The notes below the pieces were generated by a model. It was not told the DNA's origin. It did not search any database and saw nothing but the letters and a program-made list of their open reading frames with translations. A stretch of DNA of 53,041 nucleotides from Actinomycetes bacterium. GTDB lineage: Bacteria > Actinomycetota > Actinomycetes > S36-B12 > GCA-2699445. This document shows positions 2,663 to 53,041 of the stretch, piece after piece. The stretch covers positions 1 to 53,041 of the forward strand of contig JAHZLH010000063.1 in assembly GCA_022599915.1 (NCBI GenBank). The letters are read 5' to 3'. The stretch's first letter is position 1, and each line of letters begins with the position of its first letter. Made by a program: the position numbers and the translations under genes.

Positions 2663-4492
2663 GTGACAACTACCCAGCCTGGAGCCACCCCACCCGAGGT
2701 GATCCGCAATTTCTGCATCATCGCGCACATTGATCACGGCAAATCCACGCTCGCTGACCGCATGCTGCAAGCCACTGACCTCGTGGCAGACCGCGATATG
2801 CGCGCTCAGTACCTCGATCGGATGGATATTGAGCGCGAGCGGGGGATCACGATCAAGAGCCAGGCGGTGCGGTTGCCGTACCGGGCCAGTGACGGCGTCC
2901 GATATGTGCTCAATTTGATTGATACGCCCGGGCATGTGGATTTCAGCTACGAGGTTTCGCGCAGTTTGGCCGCCTGCGAGGGGGCGGTGCTGCTGGTGGA
3001 TGCGGCACAGGGGATTGAGGCGCAGACGCTGGCGAATCTCTACATGGCGTTGGAAAACGATCTGCAGATCATCCCGGTGCTGAACAAGATCGATCTACCT
3101 GCTGCGCAACCAGACAAGTACGCCGCTGAGTTGTCCCACATCATCGGCTGCGAACCAGACGAAGTGTTGCGGGTGTCGGCCAAAACTGGCGAAGGTGTGG
3201 ACGAACTCCTAGAGCGGGTAGTGAGCGATATCCCCGCCCCAATCGGCGACCCCTCGGCGCCAGCTCGCGCGCTGATCTTCGACTCGGTGTACGACACTTA
3301 CCGTGGCGTGGTCACCTACGTGCGCATGATGGACGGCTCACTGTCGCATCGAAACAAAATCAAGATGATGTCCACCAGTGCCACCCATGAGCTCCTTGAG
3401 GTCGGAGTGATTTCCCCGGAGCCCGAAGCCGCCGACGGGTTGGGCGCGGGTGAGGTCGGTTACCTGATCACTGGTGTGAAGGATGTTCGGCAAAGCCGAG
3501 TGGGTGACACTGTCACCACCGCCAACACCGGGGCAGCAGAGTCCCTCGGCGGCTACCGCGACCCACGGCCGATGGTCTACTCCGGACTGTTCCCGATCGA
3601 TGGCTCCGACTACCCGGATCTGCGGGATGCGCTGGACAAGTTGAAGTTGAACGATGCTGCGTTGGTGTACGAACCGGAGATCTCCACCGCGCTGGGATTC
3701 GGCTTCCGCTGCGGTTTCTTGGGCTTGCTGCACTTGGAAATCGTGCGAGAACGGCTGGAGCGTGAGTTTGGGCTTGATCTGATTTCCACCGCACCGAGTG
3801 TGGTGTACGGGGTGTTGATGGAAGACGAAGCCACTCACGTGGTGACCAATCCGTCGGAGTTTCCGACCGGCAAGGTGGCGGAGGTGACCGAACCTGTCGT
3901 CAAAGCAACGATCATTGCCCCCTCCGATTTTGTGGGCACGATCATGGAACTGTGCCAATCTCGGCGAGGCACCATGCTGGGCATGGATTATCTGTCCACG
4001 GATCGGGTGGAGCTTCGTTACTCGCTGCCGTTGGCCGAAATTGTGTTCGACTTCTTTGACTCACTGAAATCCCGAACCAAGGGCTACGCATCGCTGGACT
4101 ACGAACCCGATGGGGAACAGGCGGCCGACCTCGTGAAAGTGGATATCTTGCTCCACGGCGATCCAGTGGACGCTTTCAGCGCCATCGTCCATCGAGATAG
4201 CGCCTACGCCTACGGCGTGGCCATGGCCAGCCGATTACGAGAGTTGATCCCACGGCAGCAGTTCGAGGTCCCAATCCAGGCCGCCATCGGATCTCGAGTC
4301 ATCGCCCGCGAGACCATCCGAGCGATGCGTAAAGATGTCTTGGCGAAGTGCTATGGCGGCGATGTCAGTCGCAAACGCAAGCTGCTGGAGAAGCAAAAAG
4401 AGGGCAAGAAACGGATGAAGATGGTGGGTCGGGTTGAGGTGCCGCAAGAGGCATTCATTGCGGCGTTGTCCACTGATTCCGACAAGAAGTAG
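2663..4492 (+). CDS. lepA: Elongation factor 4 (back-translocase LepA)
   Basis: This ribosome-dependent translational GTPase has been linked to back-translocation and 30S biogenesis. The 609-aa product shows all G motifs: AHIDHGKST (about 21-29), [17 protein letters not shown] and SAKTGEG. The EF4-specific C-terminus ends in the lysine-rich [17 protein letters not shown] segment. Length matches the family. The frame opens at GTG 2639, but GTG 2663 has a GGAG-like site about 8 bases upstream and gives the expected N-terminus, so I prefer it. It diverges from rpsT. Confidence 0.96.
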
Positions 4493-23753: not shown

Positions 23754-25184
23754 ATGATCCGTTCGATTCGTTCGATCCGTTCGTCTTTGCTCGTCGCTGC
23801 CGTCGGCTGCCTCGCCCTCGCCGGTTGCAGTGGCTCCGACTCAGACAGTTCGCCCAGTCCATCATCGTCAGACGGTTCCATCACGGTGACGTCAACGAAT
23901 CCGTACTACCTGATGCAGACGACTTACACCGACCCGAAAGGCCAGGTGCTGTCCGACACGAAGGTGAACGGCTGCTCGATCGCGAGTTACACCAAATGCC
24001 CCAAAGTCGACCTGTCGGGGCAATACCTGCAAGGAGCGTTCCTGTCCTACGCCGACCTGAGTGGGGCGGATATCAGTGATGCGAACCTCAAGGCTGGCTC
24101 GATCTCATTCGGGGACTTCACTGACGTGAACTTCAGCGGTGCTGAACTGTCGGCGACCTCCATGGTGCGTACCGAGCTGGCGAATAGCGACCTCAGCAAG
24201 ACCCAGATGGTGTTGAACGACAATACGGAAGCGAATATGCGCTCCGCCAAGTTAGACGGTGCGACGATCGTCTCGTCCTCCTTCGTCGGGGCCAAACTTA
24301 TTGAGGTGAGCTTCACTGATGCTGTCATCAACGGGGTGTCCTTCAACAAAGCCGACCTCAGCAGCGCCGACTTCACCGGAGCTGACCTGAGCGGCAGCAA
24401 CTTCGTCGGAGCCATCGATGTGGGTACAAAATGGGAGGGCGCCAAGTTCTGCAATACGTTGATGCCCGACGGATCGGTGAAGGGCGAATCAGACTCCGGT
24501 TGCCCCGATCCACCTGCTTTCGGAGCGACCGATGCCACGGTCACTATGACCCCCGACAACCCGCTGTACGAGGGGGCAGCGGCAGCAGCCAACCCCGAAT
24601 CGGCACATCCCTACGGCGACACCGTGCGGGGCTGCACCCTGGAACAGCGCACCGAATGTGTCGGCGCCAACCTGGAGGGTGAAGACCTCACCAACGTGAT
24701 GATGGGCCTGTCGCAACTGCAGCGGCTGAATATTTCCGGCGCCAAGGGGGAGGGGCTGAACATCGTGTTGTCAGATGCGCGGGAACTTATCGCTCCTGGT
24801 GTTAGTTTCATCAGCGGTGGCTTCTCTGGCAGCGATGTGACCGGTGCTGACCTCACTGGAACCACTTGGTCGTTTGCCTCCGCCTCGCTGGCGAATATGA
24901 GCGAGGCTGACCTCGCCGGAGCAGACTTCGACTTCAGTTCACTGATCGGTACGAACCTCACCGGTGCCAATATGGCCAAGGTGGACCTGTCCGACTCCAA
25001 CGCCATCGGTATCAATCTGACTGACGCCAATCTGTCGGGCGCGAATCTGTCGGATGCTGATCTAACTGGGGCGACCATCAAGGGTGCCGATTTCAGTGGC
25101 GCCACCTACTGCAACACCGTTATGCCGGATGGCAGCGTCAAGAAGCCGCAAAAGGGTTTGTGCCCGGGTCAGAACGAGCCCTGA
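23754..25184 (+). CDS. Pentapeptide-repeat lipoprotein with two cysteine-capped modules
   Basis: The 476-aa product begins with a lipoprotein signal peptide (MIRSIRSIRSS, hydrophobic core, LAGC with Cys25), then a Ser/Asp-rich linker. Two similar modules follow. Each has a threonine-rich lead (VTSTNPYY / VTMTPDNPLY), a GCxxxxxTxC... start (23970-23999 and 24630-24659), a block of (A/S)(D/N)(L/F)xx pentapeptides, and an (F/Y)CNTxMPDGS cap (24447-24478 and 25107-25136). The second module ends the protein. It should be membrane-anchored and face outward. The cap matches the gene at 2-757. Earlier in-frame starts (23718, 23730) would spoil the signal peptide. Function is unknown; a DNA-mimic role as in MfpA/Qnr is unlikely for an exported protein. 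Confidence 0.85.
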   Translation: MIRSIRSIRSSLLVAAVGCLALAGCSGSDSDSSPSPSSSDGSITVTSTNPYYLMQTTYTDPKGQVLSDTKVNGCSIASYTKCPKVDLSGQYLQGAFLSYADLSGADISDANLKAGSISFGDFTDVNFSGAELSATSMVRTELANSDLSKTQMVLNDNTEANMRSAKLDGATIVSSSFVGAKLIEVSFTDAVINGVSFNKADLSSADFTGADLSGSNFVGAIDVGTKWEGAKFCNTLMPDGSVKGESDSGCPDPPAFGATDATVTMTPDNPLYEGAAAAANPESAHPYGDTVRGCTLEQRTECVGANLEGEDLTNVMMGLSQLQRLNISGAKGEGLNIVLSDARELIAPGVSFISGGFSGSDVTGADLTGTTWSFASASLANMSEADLAGADFDFSSLIGTNLTGANMAKVDLSDSNAIGINLTDANLSGANLSDADLTGATIKGADFSGATYCNTVMPDGSVKKPQKGLCPGQNEP

Positions 25185-31698: not shown

Positions 31699-32474
31699 CG
31701 GGGAAGCCCCCAAAGTTCATCGCTGTCGGGTCCTGGTTCGTCGTGGTGTCCGTGCGGGTCATGGAATGTTCCGGGCGCCGGCGCTGGCCCGTCGTAGCGA
31801 ATGCTGGGCCCGTCACTGTGCTCTAAGACGATGCACCGATCCACTAAGGACTCCAAGGCGCCGAGTTCGTGGGTGACAACCACTATCGTCCGGTTGCGTT
31901 TCTTGTAGTCGGCCAAGATTGATGCGAGCCGGGAGATGTTTTCCTTATCCAGGCCGGCCGTGGGCTCGTCTAGGAGTAGGACCTCGGCGTCCTTGACTAG
32001 GGCCGCGGCAATCATCGCGCGTCGCTGTTGGCCGCCGGATAGGTCATGGAAGGAATCTTTGCGACGGTCCCGCAGGCCCACGACCGCCAAGGTGTTTGCT
32101 ATGGCGTCACGATCGGCCCGACTCAACCGAAGTCGTTGACCGGCAAGGCCGGCCGATACGACTTCAGTAACTGATACTGGCACAGCAGAAGACGCCAGCA
32201 GATGCTGCGGAACATAGCTGATTCGCTGCCAGTCGCGGTACTTTGCTGCGGCCGTGCCGAAGATGCGTACCGATCCGGTCGTGACTGGTTGCAGACCCAA
32301 CATGACCCGAAGCAGGGTGCTCTTGCCGGATCCGTTGGCTCCCAGTAGTGCCAGGCATTGCCCTGGTGGAACGCGAAGTTCCACATCGGCGAGAACCGGG
32401 TCCCCTCCCAGTTCTACGGTTGTCGCAGAGACAAGGAAGGGGTCCCGGGTGCTGTTCTCCGCCGCTACTGGCAA
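31695..32474 (-). CDS. znuC: Zinc ABC transporter ATP-binding protein ZnuC
   Basis: This 259-aa ABC ATPase has Walker A LLGANGSGKSTLL, Q-loop SYVPQHLL, signature DLSGGQQRRAMIAAALVK, Walker B VLLLDEPTAGLD and the H-loop VVTHELG. A histidine/aspartate-rich tail (HDPHGHHDEPGPDSDE) may bind zinc. It probably starts at TTG 32474 with an AGGAAGGAC site upstream and overlaps the znuA end by 10 bp. Confidence 0.92.
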   Translation of the reverse strand: MPVAAENSTRDPFLVSATTVELGGDPVLADVELRVPPGQCLALLGANGSGKSTLLRVMLGLQPVTTGSVRIFGTAAAKYRDWQRISYVPQHLLASSAVPVSVTEVVSAGLAGQRLRLSRADRDAIANTLAVVGLRDRRKDSFHDLSGGQQRRAMIAAALVKDAEVLLLDEPTAGLDKENISRLASILADYKKRNRTIVVVTHELGALESLVDRCIVLEHSDGPSIRYDGPAPAPGTFHDPHGHHDEPGPDSDELWGLPR

Positions 32475-33502
32475 GGTTGTCCTTCCTGCACTGCGGCGAG
32501 GTTAGACCGCATCACCGTAATGTAGTCGCCCTGCTGCGGTGCTAGTTCCAGTGGATCGAGTACTCCAGTCTGCGCGCCGGTTTCGTCGGCGACGGTTTGC
32601 GCCACGCCCGGGTCAATCTGCGACTCGTAGTAGATAGTTTTGACGTCGTTGTCGTTGACGAAATCAGCGGCGGCAGCGATAGCTGTGGGGCTGGGCTCCT
32701 CCTCGGGGGACAAACCGCTAATACCGAACTGCCCAAAACCGTAGCGGTCGGCGAGGTAGCCGAACGCCTGGTGACTGACCACCAGGTCCCGGCTCTCGCA
32801 GTTCTTGGTGCCCTTGCGCCACTTGGTGTCTAGTTCTTCAAGTTCGGTTGTCAATGTGTTGTTATCGGCGCGGTATTGATCGGCGGAGTCGGGGTCAACC
32901 TCAATCAGCCGATTCGCTACGGCTTCGCTGATGGTCACCATGTTGACGGGGCTCAGCCAGACGTGAGGGTCCACGCTAGCGGTCTTGTCGTTTTGGCCTT
33001 CTTCGTCGCTGTGGCCTTCTTCGTCGCTGTGGCCTTCTTCGTCGCTGTGGCCTTCTTCGTCGCTGTGGCCTTCTTCGTCGCTGTGGCCTTCTTCGTCGCT
33101 GTGGCCTTCTTCGTCGTGGTCGTGGCCACCGCCACCGGACAGCGTGGGGACGAGAGCCATGACGTCAATGGCGCGATCGCCGGCGTACTCCGAGACCGCA
33201 CTGTCCAATGCGGGGGAGAAACCGGAAATGTACACCACGACATCCGCGTCAGTGACATCCGTGATCTGCTGAGGTGTCAGTTCGAGGTCGTGTGAATCGA
33301 CACCCGGCTCGGCCAGCGAGACGGAGTTGACCCGATCGCCACCAACACTGTCAGCGATGTACTGCATCGGATACATTGCGGTGACGATGGTGGGTCCGTC
33401 AGTGGATGCCGATTGGCTGGCGGTTTCTTCGGTGCTGCAACCCGCGAGTGCCAGGCACAGCGCCGCGCCTCCCGCTGCAAAAGTGGCGTGTAGCCGAACC
33501 AT
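32465..33502 (-). CDS. znuA: Zinc ABC transporter substrate-binding lipoprotein ZnuA
   Basis: This 345-aa cluster A-I binding protein captures zinc outside the cell. It has a lipoprotein signal with LAGC (Cys22), then the domain VTAMYPMQYIADSVGGDRV...GVDSHDLELTPQQ (zinc His in DSHD), a His/Asp/Glu-rich loop, DPHVWLSP (second His), VVSHQAFGYLADRYG (third His) and the acidic ligand region YYESQIDPGVAQ. The loop contains GHDHDEE followed by six GHSDEE repeats. The ATG at 33502 follows GGAGGAACA; the frame's extension to 33559 would disrupt the signal peptide. It is the first gene of znuA-znuC-znuB-zur. Confidence 0.94.
   Translation of the reverse strand: MVRLHATFAAGGAALCLALAGCSTEETASQSASTDGPTIVTAMYPMQYIADSVGGDRVNSVSLAEPGVDSHDLELTPQQITDVTDADVVVYISGFSPALDSAVSEYAGDRAIDVMALVPTLSGGGGHDHDEEGHSDEEGHSDEEGHSDEEGHSDEEGHSDEEGHSDEEGQNDKTASVDPHVWLSPVNMVTISEAVANRLIEVDPDSADQYRADNNTLTTELEELDTKWRKGTKNCESRDLVVSHQAFGYLADRYGFGQFGISGLSPEEEPSPTAIAAAADFVNDNDVKTIYYESQIDPGVAQTVADETGAQTGVLDPLELAPQQGDYITVMRSNLAAVQEGQPCQ
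32995..33116 (-). repeat. 18-bp tandem repeats coding the ZnuA His-rich loop
   Basis: Six perfect 18-bp units start at 32995, 33013, 33031, 33049, 33067 and 33085, and a partial seventh begins at 33103. Each codes one GHSDEE hexapeptide on the minus strand. The units are identical at DNA level, as expected of a young, variable-number repeat. Confidence 0.93.
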
Positions 33503-33550
33503 TGTTCCTCCGTATAGGTGTGCAAGTTCTCGCTTGCCTGCGTGGCCACA

Positions 33551-33578
33551 AATATACATAAATGGGAATCATTATCAA
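33551..33578 (-). promoter_or_regulatory. Promoter of the znuA operon with Zur box
   Basis: Read on the minus strand, TTGATA (33578-33573) and TATATT (33556-33551) are separated by 16 bases, a good sigma-70-type promoter ending about 48 bp from the znuA ATG. Within it, 33563-33577 reads TGATAATGATTCCCA, which resembles the actinobacterial Zur box (TGAAAATGATTTTCA type). Zur bound with zinc there would block RNA polymerase. Confidence 0.72.
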
Positions 33579-52038: not shown

Positions 52039-53041
52039 TTATCCGTTGGCGTTGATAGGGCAGTGGGTTCGAGGCTGGTCTTTGACTTTCCAGGTGCGTT
52101 GCCAGGTGGCTTTGTCCATGCCGGTTTGGTTGGCGACGATGTTGACGCGGACTTTGAGGCCGACGCTGCATGTTGGGGTGACCCAGACTTTGGCGTTGCT
52201 GCTGGTCTTCTTGGTCTTGATCTTGCAGGCGGCTTGTTTGTCTTTGCCGGTGAGTTTGTCGCCGTAGAGGTAGCAGCGGGTTTTCACTTTCTTGATCTGT
52301 GCGTTCGTTGCAGCTGTGCGGACAACTTTGGTCCGCTTGCCTGGGGTGAGTGTCTTGGCTTTCGAGCGGGCTTCGACCACCAGGTCGGTATCTGTGGGTG
52401 TGGGTGTGGGTGTCGGTGTCGGTGTCGGGGCGGGTGCGGTGGGGGTGACAGAGTCGCTGGGACTGCTGGGTGCACTGGTGCCGTTGGTGTTGGTGGCGGT
52501 GACGGTAAACGTGTAGCTGGTGCCGTTGGTCAGCCCGGTGACAGTGCAACTGGTGGCGCCGGTGGTAGTACACAGCTTGCCCCCGGGAGCCGAGGTGACG
52601 GTGTAGCCAGTGATCGGGTCGCCGCCGGTTGTCGTTGATGCTTGCCAAGAGACGTTAGCCTGTCCATCCCCGGCTGTGGCGACCACCGTCGTGGGGGGGC
52701 TGGGCGGAATCGAAATGACCGACACGTTGTTGTCCCCGAAGTTGGGGACGTAGGCGGTGCTGCCGTCGGGAGTGATGGCCACCCCATACGGTCGGCTGCC
52801 GACGGCGATTGTGGTGGTGACGGTGTTGGTGGCGGTGTCGATCACCGACACGTTGTTGTTCCCGAAGTTGGGGACGTAGGCGGTGCTGCCGTCGGGAGTG
52901 ATGGCCACCCCAACCGGTAGGCCGCCGACGGCGATTGTGGTGGTGACGGTGTTGGTGGCGGTGTCGATCACCGACACGTTGCTGTTCTCGAAGTTGGTGA
53001 CGTAGGCGGTGCTGCCGTCGGGAGTGATGGCCACCTCATAC
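52039..53041 (-). CDS. Beta-propeller/FN3 surface protein, 5' end outside the window
   Basis: The frame is open past the right edge, so the N-terminus is missing; 333 residues are visible. Three YVTN-type beta-propeller blades (VAITPDGSTAYVPNFG...VSVIDTATNTVTTTIAVG) of 42 residues each come first, then a fibronectin type III domain (PPTTVVATAGDGQANVSW...YTFTVTATNTNGTS), a (PT)n linker, and a Lys/Cys-rich C-terminal domain of about 110 residues with four cysteines (TRCYLYG, AACKIK, PTCSVG, THCPIN). It is probably secreted or surface-bound and adhesive. No LPXTG motif is seen. Confidence 0.82.
   Translation of the reverse strand, partial: YEVAITPDGSTAYVTNFENSNVSVIDTATNTVTTTIAVGGLPVGVAITPDGSTAYVPNFGNNNVSVIDTATNTVTTTIAVGSRPYGVAITPDGSTAYVPNFGDNNVSVISIPPSPPTTVVATAGDGQANVSWQASTTTGGDPITGYTVTSAPGGKLCTTTGATSCTVTGLTNGTSYTFTVTATNTNGTSAPSSPSDSVTPTAPAPTPTPTPTPTPTDTDLVVEARSKAKTLTPGKRTKVVRTAATNAQIKKVKTRCYLYGDKLTGKDKQAACKIKTKKTSSNAKVWVTPTCSVGLKVRVNIVANQTGMDKATWQRTWKVKDQPRTHCPINANG
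52735..53041 (-). repeat. 126-bp tandem repeats coding propeller blades
   Basis: Units start at about 52735, 52861 and 52987 and are nearly identical in DNA, each coding one 42-residue blade. The last copy is cut by the window edge. High identity implies recent duplication or gene conversion. Confidence 0.88.

Follow-up and report, generated by a model that had tools for sequence, protein, structure and literature searches.

A predicted two-module pentapeptide-repeat lipoprotein with cysteine-bearing end caps, and a possible link between cap cysteines and export

Our analysis indicated that a gene in the window (the whole stretch of actinomycete DNA analyzed, 53,041 nucleotides) encodes a putatively exported and probably lipid-anchored pentapeptide beta-helix protein of 476 amino acids (aa), whose two modules each carry cysteine-bearing caps at both ends and appear, from the homology of the two halves, to have arisen by duplication of one capped module. 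The reading we favor, with a probability of about 0.5, is that of an exported, lipid-anchored, duplicated protein with staples formed within each cap, two rods lying side by side and a role at the cell surface. A more detailed picture, in which two capped eight-coil rods on one lipid-anchored chain are packed by hydrophobic faces, have cysteine-stapled ends and follow a code of export, is tentative and falls somewhat short of even odds. The most familiar pentapeptide proteins are cytosolic and act on gyrase; little is known of what exported ones do, YjbI being the one exception found here. An end cap that occurs with cysteines in exported proteins and without them in cytosolic ones would be a natural experiment on what a solenoid needs outside the cytoplasm, while the module itself is a ready design unit (whole-coil length, self-capping, tandem-joined) and the conserved hydrophobic stripe described below makes a specific, testable claim on how two rods assemble.

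Domain architecture of the two-module protein

The gene lies on the forward strand at 23754-25184, from an ATG at 23754 to a stop codon at 25182-25184 (included), as re-reading of the open reading frame (ORF) showed in agreement with the earlier note, and it has nine orthologues besides the window's copy. The product starts with a predicted signal peptide (residues 1-24; 23754-23825) made of a basic n-region and a hydrophobic stretch, and with a lipobox, L22-A-G-C25 (LAGC; 23817-23828), with predicted lipid attachment at C25; by inspection and a simple hydrophobicity rule, this is a signal peptide ending in a lipobox, as in bacterial lipoproteins. A Ser-rich tether and lead 1 follow (23829-23972), the lead forming a strand and a helix in the structural model (E43-46 and H50-59 by DSSP) and bearing a TNPYY motif in which N49, P50, and Y51 are invariant in alignment A1. 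Entry cap 1, GC-x7-C (C74 and C82; 23970-23999), leads into the beta-helix of module 1 (residues 80-239; 23991-24470), in which the model, the match to the solved structure 2j8k and the repeat register agree on 32 pentapeptides, or eight coils, and motif scan and alignment place exit cap 1, FCNTLMPDGSVKGESDSGC (C233 and C250), at 24447-24503. A linker with lead 2 (24504-24632), homologous to lead 1, with strand 262-265, helix 272-279 and DNPLY as the counterpart of TNPYY, joins this to a second unit comprising entry cap 2, again GC-x7-C (C294 and C302; 24630-24659), the module 2 beta-helix (residues 300-459; 24651-25130), likewise of 32 pentapeptides and eight coils by model and register, and exit cap 2, YCNTVMPDGSVKKPQKGLC (C453 and C470; 25107-25163), located by the same scan and alignment. 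Both entry cysteines of each module are invariant in 8/8 aligned sequences. The mature protein thus holds the lipobox C25 and four cysteines per module, and its C-terminal tail, KKPQKGLCPGQNEP, is short with few charges.

Pfam matched the protein to PF00805 (E 1.5e-46; 155.9 bits against a cut-off of 20.2) and otherwise to related repeats only, and the two halves were 28% identical over 219 residues (E 6e-28). The lipobox, the PF00805 match and the related halves bear out the earlier description of a lipid-anchored pentapeptide protein built of two cysteine-capped modules. Some details of that description needed revision: the entry and exit cysteines were confirmed and a second exit cysteine in each module (C250, C470) had been overlooked, and the "Thr/Pro-rich" lead exists in both halves, being Ser-rich in the first part and then consisting of the TNPYY and DNPLY strand-helix leads.

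Repeat register, caps, and coil number

The four cysteines of a module fall into an entry cap, C-x7-C, and an exit cap, C-NTxMPDG-x9-C, the latter reading [FY]-C-N-T-[LV]-M-P-D-G-S-V with the second cysteine 17 residues past the first. The exit motif (F/Y)CNTxMPDGS previously reported for both halves was found as exact matches to TGYAAYACNNNNATGCCNGAYGG at 24450 and 25110; in the whole genome this pattern has six exact matches in five genes, every one a pentapeptide gene, and ten matches with at most two mismatches versus two for a reversed-pattern control. With the repeat read as A-[DN]-L-x-x and the core residue denoted i, the second entry cysteine (C82, C302) occupies the first core position of its module, a later core position is filled by the F/Y preceding the exit cysteine, the exit cysteine itself sits at i+1, and MPDG supplies the following core residue with its Met. 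C82 to M237 and C302 to M457 are then exactly 32 unbroken repeats each, or eight coils.

Wherever the register was unbroken between a C-x7-C entry and an NTxMPDG or TxCPDG exit, whole coils were counted (8, 7, 6, or 4). The TxCPDG variant (L014, L034, L035, L043) has the first cysteine moved to the Met position and the second kept. The window protein and its orthologues have 8+8 coils, the betaproteobacterial L054 has 6+6, L034, L035, and L043 have 4, and L133 (G959) was counted by hand as 7+8; in module 2 of L024 the pattern count of 6.75 started from an earlier match site, and the alignment is gapless there. Inner loops put L009, L012, L013, L014, L075, and L077, among others, out of register. 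A general whole-coil rule for pentapeptide proteins was tried and rejected, as it fails in the WxDG lipoproteins of G005 (1.75 to 10.5 coils), L107 (15.25) and L055 (5.5, by hand); the rule is limited to the C-x7-C/NTxMPDG-TxCPDG cap type and covers few independent lengths.

The G005 proteins (L111-L115, L117-L119) form an expanded lipoprotein pentapeptide family with another exit cap, WxDGxxC-x(7-8)-C (WxDRxxC in one), and a C-x13-C entry, and their lengths vary by single pentapeptides rather than whole coils. In G011, a beta-propeller-like region is fused to a pentapeptide domain (L032/L079) with the cap DNTTMPDGSLCSGAAC.

Structural model

AlphaFold2 run on the eight-sequence alignment gave a two-module model of the 476 residues with a mean pLDDT of 86.2 and a pTM of 0.83, in which residues 1-39 were disordered, the beta-helices mostly reached a pLDDT of 90 or more and strand marks recurred almost throughout every five residues. 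In the exit tails confidence was intermediate to low (block values of 69, 60, and 54), the second exit cysteines lying in the blocks at 69 and 60. A pTM of 0.83 despite the disordered stretch suggests that the modules may adopt a defined arrangement. The closest solved structure was 2j8k (Z 26.4; root mean square deviation [rmsd], 1.7 A over 166 residues in VIA-align), and the best solved matches were pentapeptide or designed pentapeptide proteins, in a comparison that covered mainly module 1 and makes the absence of other folds from the list uninformative. A PF00805 score above the cut-off and a quadrilateral beta-helix together place the protein among pentapeptide-repeat proteins. PDB sequence searches contained no C-NTxMPDG cap among the alignments listed (2, 5, and 2), Alr1298 falling outside these.

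Conserved hydrophobic faces

The four faces of each helix were numbered 0 to 3 from the entry cysteine, and the exposed positions i-1, i+1, and i+2 of coils 2-7 were compared across the alignment. Mean pairwise identity of exposed residues was 0.28, 0.33, 0.49, and 0.49 for faces 0 to 3, and the hydrophobic fraction was 0.02, 0.02, 0.21, and 0.24 (p 1e-4 with free choice of faces). Faces 2 and 3 had been noticed before the test, and the fair form of the rotation test therefore leaves a free choice of any adjacent pair: rotation of faces within coils gave p 5e-5 for the preset pair and 1.5e-4 for any adjacent pair, and the two modules taken separately gave 0.0004 and 0.004, or 0.003 and 0.018 with free choice. 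The same rotation test on core positions gave no face effect on conservation. Hydrophobic residues occur on faces 2 and 3 in 15/16 coils, the seventh coil of module 2 being the one without.

The stripe is present in the weakest-matching orthologue, L133, less so on face 3 of module 1, and persists in the lipobox-free L076, which speaks against a stripe that merely lies on the membrane. As a general trait the stripe was rejected: it was not seen in the two-module L054, in both cytosolic relatives, or in most single-module relatives examined. A comparable bias occurs in the single-module L055 under its own face numbering (7/30 versus 2/36), and L075 has a weak bias on the other two faces. Taken together, L054 and L055 show that the stripe does not go with a two-module build. 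The conservation of hydrophobic faces 2 and 3 suggests, as far as sequence comparison can indicate, that they may pack against each other or against a partner; the simplest reading is that the modules pack via these faces, with a second copy, a partner, the membrane, or cover by the leads as alternatives.

Orthologues and distribution

Full-length relatives were found in 8/166 genomes of the order at E 1e-40 (the window's own counted) and in 2/395 genomes of the class of G404 at E 1e-30 (the query genome counted), with loci in Candidatus Nanopelagicales, Micrococcales, other actinomycetes, and Acidimicrobiia. The window protein was aligned with seven orthologues that share 35 to 82% identity with it; none of the eight cap cysteines varies, and no gap interrupts the helices from entry to exit cysteine. 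A lipobox-like motif occurs in 7/9 complete sequences, the window's counted (L020 is cut at this point). In L076 and L130 the signal peptide is a plain one that lacks a lipobox, so the lipid anchor is not universal. The same two-module plan recurs in the betaproteobacterial L054.

The [NK]TxMPDG pattern searched at the DNA level, blind to cysteine, was found in 7/296 genomes of the phylum (own genome counted), 14/109 genomes of the order (own or query genome counted) and 14/398 genomes of the phylum of G406 (query genome counted). Most matches in the order sample fall in pentapeptide ORFs, and in the two phylum-wide samples no match outside G000, the window's own genome, and G406 lay within a pentapeptide ORF. 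Viral sequences contained 21 pattern matches, none encoding a relative. By tblastn, 252 plasmid and 248 phage records matched, all at <60% identity; 33 plasmid and 6 phage records had matches covering at least 80% of the query, and those listed were mostly annotated as pentapeptide or hypothetical proteins. In the literature searched, which lay mostly outside subscription papers, neither the motif strings nor "pentapeptide repeat" together with "Nanopelagicales" was found.

Cap cysteines and export

The relation between cap cysteines and export was analyzed in 81 pentapeptide ORFs from loci L009-L124 and the window, with identical last domains counted once; removal of seven antisense ORFs and one duplicate left 73, which a home-made signal rule divided into 50 exported, 14 without signal and 9 cut at the 5' end. 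At least one pentapeptide gene already known (L110) escaped the domain rule by which ORFs were gathered. Exit cysteines were counted by zone, not by motif, and L018 accordingly scored one exit cysteine, its second lying just beyond the zone, and L017, with its 3' end cut, was scored on an internal C-x3-C. Exactly two exit-zone cysteines were present in 45/48 exported versus 4/13 signal-less ORFs (Fisher 7e-6, overstated by related rows), and exactly two entry-zone cysteines in 40/50 versus 2/14. Two ORFs called signal-less by the rule (L047 and L111:854) have a visible signal or lipobox, and moving them by hand gave 46/50 versus 3/11 for exit pairs (Fisher 2e-5, rows again related). Within four genomes, among the PF00805 matches listed, exit pairs were found in 22/24 versus 3/9 (p 0.0017, with L017 doubtful). 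The rows are related by descent, so that all of these p-values are too small. Over 70 ORFs, the exit zone held two cysteines in 55, none in 12 and one in 3, with about 22 single cysteines expected under independence.

Pairs at one end only occur in L015, L123, L124, and L030, and pairing is thus most simply placed within each cap, which would make the cysteine pairs local rather than entry to exit. Disulfides running from entry to exit were rejected, the caps being eight coils apart and one-end-only pairs existing; a coil usually rises 4.8 A, and eight coils put entry and exit roughly 38 A apart. VKOR was found in 8/8 genomes tested.

Cytosolic homologues without the cysteines, which the earlier note had set against its own proposal, do exist: three cytosolic-looking relatives in G042 (L078 775-1536, L084 1479-2117, and L087) have the caps HKTTMPDGS, HNTTMPDGS, and NNTRMPDGS without a cysteine. 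Such caps fit cysteines that may have been acquired as an adaptation to export. Three signal-less ORFs carry an exit pair: L010, a fragment next to a tRNA; L031, whose start is doubtful; and L124, which has no recognizable export signal and looks like a true counterexample. Of the earlier view, export as predicted from the signal, the recurrence of the capped unit as a module and the association of cap cysteines with export are supported. That the NTxMPDG end cap gains its cysteine pair on leaving the cytosol, as part of a wider code of export that goes with a covalent rod pair, is a provisional proposal, a little more apt to fail than to hold.

Several pentapeptide ORFs in this set have other features of their own. 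L120, L084, and L087 (G042) belong to a cytosolic-looking group, some members being long and several having a cysteine-free [NK]TxMPDG cap. L015 (1644-2405) has zinc-ribbon-like CxxC motifs, a transmembrane segment and an exit pair, and L108 (716-1372) has such motifs without a transmembrane segment and a single exit cysteine; Pfam names no zinc ribbon in either. L123 (1-1674), with an entry pair only, fuses the pentapeptide domain to a GH39-like glycosidase (25.3 bits; cut-off, 26).

Comparison with known proteins and alternative explanations

Exported pentapeptide proteins with capping cysteine pairs are already known; the two-module form is new. According to the available part of its report (EMBO J 2026, PMC12864828), YjbI (PerA) of Caulobacter crescentus is a secreted pentapeptide protein on the cell surface that controls envelope stress and represses envelope stress pathways, with a conserved cysteine pair at each beta-helix end and a charged C-terminal tail that crosses the outer membrane and is needed for function. 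YjbI and the two-module protein share an export signal, a quadrilateral beta-helix and a cysteine pair at each extremity, the signal here being of the lipoprotein type and the pairs occurring in both modules in 8/8 aligned sequences; YjbI is located at the surface, and the two-module protein is predicted to be so. Compared by description only, YjbI differs in its single module, Sec signal, diderm outer membrane, and charged functional tail, and its cysteines are reactive as thiols. The lumenal proteins Rfr32 (2F3L/2G0Y) and At2g44920 (3N90), which likewise have a pentapeptide beta-helix outside the cytosol, carry a disulfide in the C-terminal cap, as stated in the available text of a 2021 review (PMC8145042); they differ in their two-helix cap and single module, and that text describes no NTxMPDG cap for them. 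The same text gives cyanobacterial Rfr23 (2O6W) a local Cys39-Cys42 "bracket," which differs in its spacing and single module. Knotted Solenoid proteins, as far as the accessible part of the report goes (PNAS 2026, PMC13123833), dimerize through a hydrophobic surface and keep their conserved cysteine pairs reduced, and they differ in having a knotted triangular fold, separate chains, and unbonded cysteines. Given the reactive thiols of YjbI and the reduced Knotted Solenoid pairs, disulfide closure of the modules stays a plausible inference.

Under the reading we favor, the cysteines would pair within each cap after Sec export, aided by the host-encoded VKOR, and the resulting disulfides would staple the solenoid ends, preventing fraying and polymerization. 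The two rods, equal in length, may pack side by side via their greasy faces as the covalent counterpart of a beta-helix dimer, leaving two charged, variable faces outward. The Ser-rich tether would hold this stiff pair of rods to the membrane's outer face, where it would probably serve as a surface scaffold or bind a ligand or partner, and might sense the envelope as YjbI does. The eight invariant cap cysteines, paired exit counts, pairs at one end only, association with export, VKOR, pTM, and conserved hydrophobic stripe, also present in L133 and L076, count for this explanation; the exit tails of mid to low confidence, the reactive thiols of YjbI, the unbonded Knotted Solenoid pairs and the exception of L124, together with the absence of the stripe from L054, the similar bias in single-module L055, the gap of the stripe in module 2 and the lack of a conserved neighbor in the four loci scanned, count against it.

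A possible but less probable explanation is that the hydrophobic side binds the membrane or lipids, a cell-wall polymer, a partner protein, or a second copy, on the model of YjbI, which simulations in the available part of its report place sideways in the outer membrane (PMC12864828). A stripe spanning most coils and the bias in single-module L055 agree with this, whereas the stripe retained in lipobox-free L076 and the defined module pair that the pTM may indicate do not, and two matching stripes per chain fit pairing more simply. It is unlikely that the cysteine pairs, instead of forming structural disulfides, stay reduced or bind metal in order to sense redox state or zinc. The reduced Knotted Solenoid pairs point in that direction (PMC13123833, accessible part), as does YjbI: on cells, two of its cysteines react with PEG-maleimide directly and two more after EGTA, by the authors' reading, and zinc triggers its loss. 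However, that turnover requires none of the cysteines, since a four-Cys-to-Ser mutant is still zinc-responsive (PMC12864828, available part), Rfr32 and At2g44920 carry their cap disulfide (PMC8145042, available text), and the 8 genomes tested encode VKOR. The ZnuA-like zinc lipoprotein gene about 7 kb away, which would suit a zinc role, may be a coincidence.

Three further explanations have little in their favor. Drifting repeat expansion without a selected function, which the genome's 14 pentapeptide ORFs, several of them lying at contig ends, might suggest, is improbable given the gapless eight-coil helices of the aligned orthologues and the few amino acid differences from L020 (pN 0.097, pS 0.739), synonymous sites being so near saturation that the ratio of 0.033 indicates purifying selection no more than roughly. 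It is still harder to credit an ice-binding or antifreeze-like solenoid: the related gene at 2-757 has Thr-rich faces and matches insect antifreeze family PF05264 at 23.2 bits, but this is below the cut-off of 25.9 and is not reported for the two-module protein, whose conserved faces offer a mixed, hydrophobic surface and no flat array of Thr. Hardest of all to sustain is a cytosolic gyrase-protecting DNA mimic. MfpA and Qnr share the fold and are cytosolic gyrase binders, and MfpA (2bm5) matched the model with Z 21.8 and rmsd 2.1 over 169 residues; the NCBIfam scores were nevertheless far below the cut-offs (57.3 versus 360 bits for MfpA and 58.2 versus 240 bits for Qnr), and these, with the signal peptide and lipobox, uphold the distinction from cytosolic DNA mimics that had been drawn earlier.

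Paralogues and genomic neighborhood

The genome (2.44 Mb in 75 contigs) contains 14 pentapeptide ORFs, several at contig ends, as repeats do. One is the 5'-truncated paralogue at 2-757 on the forward strand of the window, cut by the contig edge, with a CAPNC, a beta-helix and the exit cap CNTTMPDGSIRNTNC. The earlier note rightly gave it the same exit cap and a CAPNC; the latter is an internal re-entry and not the entry, which in the intact paralogues L009 and L058 is an upstream C-x7-C after the signal peptide (the L058 model had pLDDT 78.6 and pTM 0.75). The fragment passes the Alr5209 family NF052603 (146.9 bits), probably due to its many plain repeats, and the two-module protein falls below that cut-off (119.9 versus 125 bits). 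Tandem paralogues of the fragment lie at 3379-4146 and 4239-4571 of L009 (G000 C72), the second ending at the contig end. L010 (2142-2690; G000 C52) is a pentapeptide fragment that lacks a signal but has the full exit cap; it adjoins a tRNA-Arg (2073-2147), as though part of the family had ended up at this site.

The look at neighboring genes proposed earlier named no partner: in the four loci scanned, no conserved neighbor or operon partner recurred beyond the genus. In the same genus, L050 has the glycogen phosphorylase gene downstream and, upstream, a 1000-aa ORF that matches the window's SbcC by length alone; the neighbors scanned were ABC transporter and SDR genes at L051, abhydrolase and radical SAM genes at L053, and amino acid biosynthesis and phospholipid genes at betaproteobacterial L054. 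Rfam and tRNA scans of the window gave nothing overlapping the gene at 23754-25184, neither a consensus promoter nor a terminator turned up in its vicinity, and PADLOC assigned no family to the two proteins tested. Elsewhere in the window, the gene at 32465-33559 (reverse strand) encodes the ZnuA-like zinc lipoprotein (PF01297), with six copies of GHSDEE and an 18-base tandem array at 32983-33116, and the product of the contig-edge gene at 52039-53040 (reverse strand) gives beta-propeller-like and fibronectin type III matches, with a tandem repeat of 126 bases at 52718-53041.
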